Assembly (NCBI GenBank): GCA_030951095.1
Contig: JAUZQI010000121.1
Coordinates: 1 to 14,848, forward strand
Direction of reading: 5' to 3'
Length of the DNA stretch: 14,848 nucleotides
From: Mariprofundus sp.
GTDB lineage: Bacteria > Pseudomonadota > Zetaproteobacteria > Mariprofundales > Mariprofundaceae
Part shown: piece by piece, positions 7,053-8,680 of the stretch
Position numbering within the stretch: the stretch's first letter is position 1
How the letters are laid out: the number at the start of each line of letters is the position of its first letter
Translations under genes and position numbers: made by a program
Notes under the pieces: generated by a model
Told to the model about the DNA's origin: nothing
What the model saw: the letters and a program-made list of their open reading frames with translations, nothing else
The model's database searches: none

Positions 7053-8108
7053 ATGCAATCAAACATGCAAACGGATAGCAAGCACCACCCGCTGATTGGC
7101 GCTGCCGCGTTTGTGGTGATCATCGCCGGCATGCAGGCTGCCGCCTCGCTGCTGGTGCCTTTCCTGCTGGCTGCATTTATTGCCATCATCTGCCTGCCGC
7201 CACTGAACTGGCTGACTGCCAAACGTATCCCTGCTACTGCCGCTGTGCTGATTATCGCGCTCGTCATTATTGTGGTCGGGCTGCTCATCGGCGCTTTTGT
7301 CGGCTCCTCGGTAGCGGACTTTTCCCGGAATTTGCCAGCCTATCAGGAACGCCTGCAAGCATTGACCGGCAACACAATGCACTGGCTTGCCGGCTGGGGC
7401 ATTTCCATCTCATCACAGTCCCTGCTCGATGCGCTCAACCCGTCTGCAGCCATGGGAATGGCCGGCAAACTGTTGTCCGGACTTGGCAATATGCTGGCCA
7501 ATACCTTTCTGATTGTATTAACGGTGATTTTCCTGCTGATCGAAACCACTGCCCTGCCGCATAAATGGCATGCTATGGAAACTCGTGCGCCATCGATGCA
7601 AGGGTTTGATCAATTTGTACGCAGTGTCAGCGCCTATTTCTCCATCAAAAGCTGGGTCAGTCTGGCTACCGGTGTATTCATCACGATCTGGCTAGCTGTA
7701 ATCGGTGTCGATTATCCGCTGTTGTGGGGACTGGTGGCATTTCTGTTCAACTTCGTTCCCAATATCGGTTCTATCATTGCCGCCGTACCGGCCATTTTGC
7801 TGGCGCTGGTACAGCTGGGTGGTGGCGAAGCACTGCTGGCAGGCCTGGGTTATGTGATTGCCAATGTCATTATGGGAAATGTCATTGAGCCAAAATTTAT
7901 GGGGAAAGGTGTCGGGGTATCCACCCTCGTCGTCTTCCTGTCTCTGATATTCTGGGGCTGGGTGCTCGGCCCTGTCGGCATGTTGCTTTCCGTTCCACTG
8001 ACCATGATTGTAAAACTGGCACTGGAATCGAATGAACAAACACAGTGGTTGGCCATCCTGCTTGGCCCTGATGTGCCGAAAGCTAGGGAAGTGCTGATTA
8101 AACCATGA
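7053..8108 (+). CDS. AI-2E family transporter (PerM/TqsA-like), C-terminus altered by an inserted element
   Basis: This 351-residue inner-membrane protein belongs to the AI-2E superfamily of exporters and antiporters. Known members export autoinducer-2 or move Na+/H+; this one's substrate cannot be read from sequence. Hydrophobic helices lie near residues 13-50, 62-88, 145-165, 200-222, 225-275 and 285-330. Family segments include FVPNIGSIIAAVPAILLAL, GNVIEPKFMGKGVGVS and LGPVGMLLSVPLTMIVKLALE. It starts 3 bases after the BFD-like gene and lacks a Shine-Dalgarno, so coupling is likely; Met5 (7065) is an alternative start. The last codons (REVLIKP, stop) are encoded by the inverted repeat of the MITE-like element at 8083-8244. 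Without the insertion the protein would end ...DVPKAS. Confidence 0.93.
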   Translation: MQSNMQTDSKHHPLIGAAAFVVIIAGMQAAASLLVPFLLAAFIAIICLPPLNWLTAKRIPATAAVLIIALVIIVVGLLIGAFVGSSVADFSRNLPAYQERLQALTGNTMHWLAGWGISISSQSLLDALNPSAAMGMAGKLLSGLGNMLANTFLIVLTVIFLLIETTALPHKWHAMETRAPSMQGFDQFVRSVSAYFSIKSWVSLATGVFITIWLAVIGVDYPLLWGLVAFLFNFVPNIGSIIAAVPAILLALVQLGGGEALLAGLGYVIANVIMGNVIEPKFMGKGVGVSTLVVFLSLIFWGWVLGPVGMLLSVPLTMIVKLALESNEQTQWLAILLGPDVPKAREVLIKP

Positions 8109-8244
8109 TTCACGATCCTGCATGTGAAATAAACGATTTCTTCGTTAAAGATTTGAGCCATAGCGGTGCTATGCCTTGCAATCTTTGCCTTGAACTCATC
8201 CATCTGCGGTCTCATCAAACCAGATTTAATCAGCACTTCCCTAG
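8083..8244. mobile_element. MITE-like element with 16-bp terminal inverted repeats and CTAG target duplication
   Basis: The ends are perfect inverted repeats: GGAAGTGCTGATTAAA at 8087-8102 and its complement at 8225-8240. Both are flanked by CTAG (8083-8086 and 8241-8244), consistent with a 4-bp target duplication. The body is 154 bp, too short for a transposase. Inside are nested arms AAAGATT/AATCTTT (8147-8153, 8180-8186) around CATAGC/GCTATG (8159-8173), and AACGA/TCGTT (8132-8146). From memory, IS5 ends read GGAAGGTGCGAATAAG and IS5 targets YTAR, so an IS5-like parent is likely (inference). The element lies across the 3' end of the AI-2E gene. Deleting it with one CTAG gives GCT AGC TGA, a stop 7 bases before the next gene's ATG. 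On the minus strand it stays open throughout. Confidence 0.82.
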
Positions 8245-8255
8245 CTGACTGGCAC

Positions 8256-8375
8256 ATGGAAATTCTGTATCGCTGCCGCACATGCAAAACTGAGTTCCGA
8301 CTGGATGAACGAGAGCCATGCTGCTGCCCCAAATGCGGCAGTACCGTGGCCGATCTGATTCAGCGATTTTATTGA
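8256..8375 (+). CDS. 39-residue zinc-ribbon protein
   Basis: This tiny predicted zinc-binding protein has C7-x2-C10 (YRCRTCKTEF) and C24-x2-C27 (CCPKCGS), in the layout of FmdB-like zinc ribbons. Its role is unknown. The ATG at 8256 is preferred because the ribbon begins at once and the preceding frame belongs to the inserted element; no strong Shine-Dalgarno is visible. Before the MITE inserted, the ATG would have lain 7 bases after the AI-2E stop, as the last gene of that operon. Its 3' end overlaps the convergent yajD gene by 7 bases. It is short enough that a coding call rests mainly on the cysteine pattern. Confidence 0.65.
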   Translation: MEILYRCRTCKTEFRLDEREPCCCPKCGSTVADLIQRFY

Positions 8376-8680
8376 TCCATATCTTTCAATAAATCTTTAA
8401 GACCGGCAAAGCCCTTGTAGGTTGAACCGCTCGCATCCTCCCGCTTTACCGGCCCATGTGCATCGGCCTCCAGATAGCGTTGATGTTCATTGTCGTGGCA
8501 ATAGATGCAGAGCAATTCCCAGTTACTGCCATCAGATGGATTATTGCTATGATTGTGATCCTTGTGATGCACCGTGAGTTCGCGTAATTGTTTGCCTGCA
8601 AAATCACGACCACAACGGCCACAAACCCATGGAAACAGTTTTAAGGCCTGCTCACGATAACTCTCCGTATTGTTCTTCAT
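8369..8680 (-). CDS. yajD: HNH nuclease-family protein YajD
   Basis: This 103-residue protein is a close relative of E. coli YajD, an uncharacterised HNH-fold protein. Structural zinc cysteines are C20-x2-C23 (CGRCGRDF) and C58-x2-C61 (CIYCHD). The catalytic ββα-metal core is HHKDHNH (38-44), followed by DGSNWELLC and the final H66. The family resemblance is strong (RELTVHH, NNP-DGSNWELLC-YCHD-EH). Nuclease activity is expected from the fold, but the biological substrate is not known to me. It begins 10 bases after the SpoIIAA-like gene and is the last gene of the glyQ-led block. The Shine-Dalgarno is weak (GGTGAG 9 bases before the ATG). Confidence 0.93.
   Translation of the reverse strand: MKNNTESYREQALKLFPWVCGRCGRDFAGKQLRELTVHHKDHNHSNNPSDGSNWELLCIYCHDNEHQRYLEADAHGPVKREDASGSTYKGFAGLKDLLKDMDQ

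Follow-up and report, generated by a model that had tools for sequence, protein, structure and literature searches.

How did the AI-2E transporter gene of this Mariprofundus sp. come to end inside a fold-back repeat, and what did its junction with the next gene look like before? In the window (the whole stretch of 14,848 nucleotides analysed), the AI-2E frame crosses a CTAG and stops within a short element that a second CTAG closes (Table 1). The ends of this copy, GGAAGTGCTGATTAAA, are inverted and perfect over 16 bases, or over 20 with the target CTAG included, and its 154 bp contain no transposase gene and no coding signal, just as the initial annotation had described it (perfect 16-bp terminal repeats, CTAG on both sides, no room for a transposase). 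We consider it highly probable that a miniature inverted-repeat element (MITE), most likely mobilised in trans by the transposase of an IS5-family element of the same genome, entered the CTAG at the end of the AI-2E gene: the insertion is accompanied by a 4-bp duplication, the element has a family of copies, IS pieces with matching ends reside in the same genome, and three congeners have the junction free of any insert. When the flanks are joined by script, they read AAA GCT AGC TGA, followed by 7 nt and the ATG of a 39-aa gene, which is exactly the ancestral junction first proposed for the locus. Without the insertion the transporter has 345 aa and ends in PKAS*, against 351 aa now, and the REVLIKP codons consist of the last two target bases plus element sequence; the proposal that the element supplies this tail thus holds, with a small contribution from the target. 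The 39-aa product is a putative zinc ribbon, as read from its two CxxC motifs, with a weak Pfam match to HypA that lies below the HypA cut-off.

Table 1. Features of the insertion locus (window positions) and related mini-elements (positions within the named loci)
Feature	Position	Strand	Basis or remark
AI-2E family transporter, 351 aa	7053..8108	+	PF01594, E 1.1e-60; REVLIKP tail insertion-derived
Left target-site duplication CTAG (YTAR)	8083..8086	.	Sequence reading, flank comparison
MITE body, 154 bp	8087..8240	+	6 bp short of the 160-bp consensus; non-coding
Left terminal inverted repeat	8087..8102	+	End comparison
Right terminal inverted repeat, 16 bases identical to left	8225..8240	-	End comparison
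Right target-site duplication CTAG	8241..8244	.	Sequence reading, flank comparison
39-aa zinc-ribbon-like protein	8256..8375	+	Direct neighbour of AI-2E in G004, G014 and G022
Mini-elements, 37–39 bp, both ends	L039:830-866, L040:1224-1260, L041:1987-2023, L042:1711-1747 and five more		

The further copies for which the initial annotation had suggested a search are abundant in the host assembly (G000; 1.65 Mb in 193 contigs, 78% complete). With 40 of 57 candidates scored, a DNA search gave at least 45 matches at no fewer than 40 places, at least 30 of which are 144 bp or longer; five of the 45 are second hits, in the opposite orientation, to places already counted, as a palindromic element produces, and four of the 30 long copies are terminal on their contigs (C102, C24 twice, C77) and hence may be halves of two copies. 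These three contigs start or finish inside near-identical MITE copies and, since they stop there, the repeat probably breaks the assembly. A search for the end pattern, one mismatch allowed, returned 80 matches against 0 for the reversed control, a few of them (for example, C84:8712, C139:2767 and C141:20834) resembling chance matches within genes. Ends and flanks were analysed for 38 loci, at which 34 elements had both ends: 25 of 154–162 bp (22 of exactly 160) and nine minis of 37–39 bp. Identical 4-bp flanks border 13 of the 25 long elements and 5 of the 9 minis, and 14 of these 18 pairs fit YTAR, the target described for IS5 (PMC10359306); the flanks of the other 16 of the 34 elements are not identical, which we read as decay. 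The long copies are 74–97% identical in pairwise comparisons, with a mean of 90%. With its terminal repeats, YTAR-type duplication, lack of a transposase and dispersed copies, the window element is an IS5-type MITE, for which comparison with a plasmid collection gave no match.

The minis are most simply read as products of slipped-strand deletion of the fold-back. The 160-bp consensus carries the 9-bp repeat ATCAAACCA at positions 11 and 134, and deletion between the two predicts a 37-bp product that six of the nine minis match with 0–2 mismatches; the remaining three depart from it, with 5 mismatches, with 6 mismatches and, in the case of the 39-bp one, by resembling the IS 3' end. The 37-bp unit may itself be mobile. 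Another genome, G085, has a mini of 34 bp.

Five host contigs break off within an IS that shares its end sequence with the MITE; C132, C89, C142 and C115 show its 5' end and C17 its 3' end. Fragments of the transposase on C115 and C17 match the IS5-family model NF033581 (E 3.7e-13 and 1.6e-12, respectively, below the whole-protein cut-off) as well as the Pfam families DUF772 and DDE_Tnp_1. The ends of IS and MITE are identical over 16 of 16 bases, in keeping with the resemblance to IS5 ends suggested in the initial annotation. The two ends of the MITE consensus, GGAAGCGCTGATCAAA and GGAAGTGCTGATTAAA, differ at two positions; the IS 3' end is GGAAGCGCTGATCAAA, three of the four IS 5' ends are GGAAGTGCTGATTAAA over 16 bases, that of C115 is mixed, and the window copy has the GGAAGTGCTGATTAAA form at both of its ends. 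Of the full-length IS with the same ends that the initial annotation had proposed to look for, the host assembly contains pieces of IS5-family type at contig ends; no complete copy is found there, all five IS-bearing contigs stopping within the IS, and the complete parent would be expected to measure, by estimate, about 1.2 kb and to have the ends GGAAGTGCTGATTAAACC and GGAAGCGCTGATCAAAAG. On these sequence comparisons, the resident IS is likely to be the autonomous partner of the MITE, and we infer that its transposase would act on the MITE in trans. Related transposase N-termini occur in 4 of 22 other genomes of the genus, the best with 73% identity in G017 (for a query one residue short).

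Searched with the window copy, 5 of 41 genomes match, the host's own included; with the consensus as query, 10 of 78 genomes of the class do so at E 1e-3, again including the host's own. Full-length or nearly full-length matches are present in G081 (88%), G085 (86%), G004 (85%), G018 (76%, positions 1–152) and G046 (71%), and the other four matching genomes have short pieces. As these five genomes and the host represent four genera, the family predates the species. In G085, which belongs to another genus, 10 of 87 candidates were scored and there are at least 10 matches; many related MITEs are seen there (L201-L210, L228-L240), some directly adjoining one another with a single YTAR in common (L206, next to an IS5 copy, L235 and L238). 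In alignment A1, columns 13 and 152 show that both ends have changed together, being mostly of the GAT type in G000 and of the GAA type in G081 and G085. We considered whether MITE ends track the local IS, but this is unsupported in G085, where most MITE ends found differ from the IS end read: 21 are exactly of the GAAYAAA type and 3 of the GATYAAA type, while the single IS end read is GATCAAA. A brief literature search found no published account of an IS5-type MITE family in Zetaproteobacteria; the present data document one, at high copy number in at least two genomes, and its 37-bp remnants and its fold-back kept across genera can be used to examine how MITE bodies persist and how they are lost.

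The placement of the copies relative to genes was surveyed in 43 contigs or parts of contigs (425,512 bases, over half of them picked for holding copies), with genes called as greedy ORFs and not by a trained predictor. The MITE copies avoid gene bodies: of 31 elements placed, 20 are intergenic, 6 lie on a stop codon, 4 at a 3' end and 1 in a called CDS, when 1211 of the 1926 YTAR sites in the surveyed sequence fall within a CDS. Moreover, the lone element in a CDS (C165) would sit on a stop codon under an alternative ORF list. Besides that of the window, six elements are entered by reading frames that have 70 codons or more outside the element, although some of these frames are probably not genes. 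Targeting of stop codons was considered because YTAR contains TAA and TAG, and was rejected, since 6 of 30 non-CDS elements against 91 of 715 (12.7%) non-CDS YTAR sites is not a significant excess (p 0.17).

The fold-back invites a different view of the element. Shuffled sequences fold far less well than either strand of the window copy (z -6.4 and -9.4), and in an alignment of 17 sequences 24 of 53 pairs have two-sided changes, against 10.4 in shuffles, none of 500 of which scored as high; since these sequences share ancestry and their alignment also yielded the structure, this is support for the fold-back, not proof. It is very unlikely that the importance of a hairpin in the transcript of one strand accounts for the survival of the 160-bp fold-back in different genera of one family, between which identity falls to about 71%, and less likely still that the body is a functional RNA, a processing or regulatory hairpin under selection that transposition merely spreads. 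If one strand's hairpin did matter, the element would be a mobile, RNA-structured one and not a passive MITE. Several observations do lean in that direction: in all 10 representatives the window's minus strand folds better than its complement; in a strand-neutral count over 21 copies, G-T contacts number 38 (minus-strand G-U) against 6 (plus); and in all 6 genomes the family majorities point in this direction too, G-U contacts by family majority being 22 on one strand and 3 on the other in G000, G081, G085 and G046, which are not independent. The skew weakens to 19 against 9 (p 0.087) when collapsed to distinct column pairs, and to 13 against 6 (p 0.17) in the interior; in the G000 consensus alone it is 5 against 5, and orientation relative to the upstream gene is unbiased (6 against 5 of 11 co-directional sites). 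Selection for a strand-specific RNA, strong as its signal was initially, was thus rejected. Window positions 7900–8500 gave no match in Rfam up to E 1, and a pattern search of the window element gave no promoter or terminator; arm-to-arm conversion, or a requirement for two matching ends, also explains the paired changes.

A coding interior finds even less room. One minus-strand frame is open in 9 of 17 translated copies, including the window's (that of L212 shifts frame near its end), as might befit a captured gene fragment with a translated minus-strand frame. Stops interrupt the other 8 of 17 translations (in one, L215, from a one-base coordinate offset), and the changes among the 25 long copies are spread evenly over the codon positions of this minus-strand frame (73, 72 and 74); we regard this origin as scarcely credible, and reject a coding interior.

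The passive MITE moved by a resident transposase is the reading that we retain, and insert-free loci supply its earlier state. Mariprofundus MAGs are the closest named relatives, the AI-2E protein being 91% identical in JAUZQH010000062.1, a record that is probably G004, to judge by coinciding coordinates and identity. Some AI-2E match exists in all 23 genomes of the genus; G009, G018 and G021, in which it is distant or partial, were excluded, leaving 20 close loci in 19 genomes outside G000. The comparison with orthologues that the initial annotation had called for shows three insert-free congeners: the zinc-ribbon ATG follows the AI-2E stop after 2 nt in G004 and G014 and after 5 nt in G022. 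In 15 further genomes (16 loci), a search of the covered sequence next to AI-2E at E 1e-4 showed no such small gene; the junction is therefore supported by 3 of the 19 genomes, close relatives and not the whole genus. In G007, a sister species, the two genes are separated by some 506 nt of unrelated sequence (L078:2530-3035), with an open frame that may resemble the ends of DUF4143 proteins. An ancestral origin of the REVLIKP tail, with the repeat there by coincidence, is refuted, no supporting point having been found, as 0 of the 20 orthologue loci end in this way and the closest congener, G004, ends in PKASD*.

The insertion would have proceeded as follows. A 154-bp element would have entered the CTAG within the last AI-2E codons and duplicated it, exchanging the final serine for REVLIKP; the stop codon, formerly 7 nt ahead of the zinc-ribbon-like gene, now precedes it by 147 nt, and a long fold-back separates the two. 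Close translational coupling of the two genes would probably have been lost in the process. A change in the function of the transporter is not implied, because the replaced tail already varies among orthologues. In any event, the case offers a clean before-and-after example of a MITE that rewrites the C-terminus of a protein and parts two tightly spaced genes.

Several known elements resemble this one in part. BrickBuilt and other IS5-related MITEs of Porphyromonas gingivalis are described as non-autonomous, with ends identical to, or within 1–2 bases of, those of resident IS5-family elements (PMC4596501). BrickBuilt, however, differs in sequence and contains a minisatellite; both of its ends are intact in 4 of 19 copies, three of these four having target duplications of varying length and sequence (PMC4596501). 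Copies of QMITE1 and QMITE2 of Coxiella burnetii form a stable stem and overlap the 3' ends of genes, and in one strain the C-terminal 33 residues of a protein come from such a copy, but they are different elements, for which the account consulted names no IS5 parent (PMC5896051). Chunjie of Geobacter uraniireducens likewise lies within an operon and has many intergenic copies of varying size; compared by description, it is distinct in its 235 bp (PMC10969869). The enterobacterial RU-1, fused to the 3' end of the amidase gene ECA3499 in place of the normal stop, differs in having 127 bp and a TA target duplication and in not being of the IS5 type (PMC2759123). Insertion into an operon (Chunjie) and fusion to gene ends (the QMITEs, RU-1) are thus already known elsewhere, and the window presents an ordinary IS5-type MITE with a well-resolved history of insertion.
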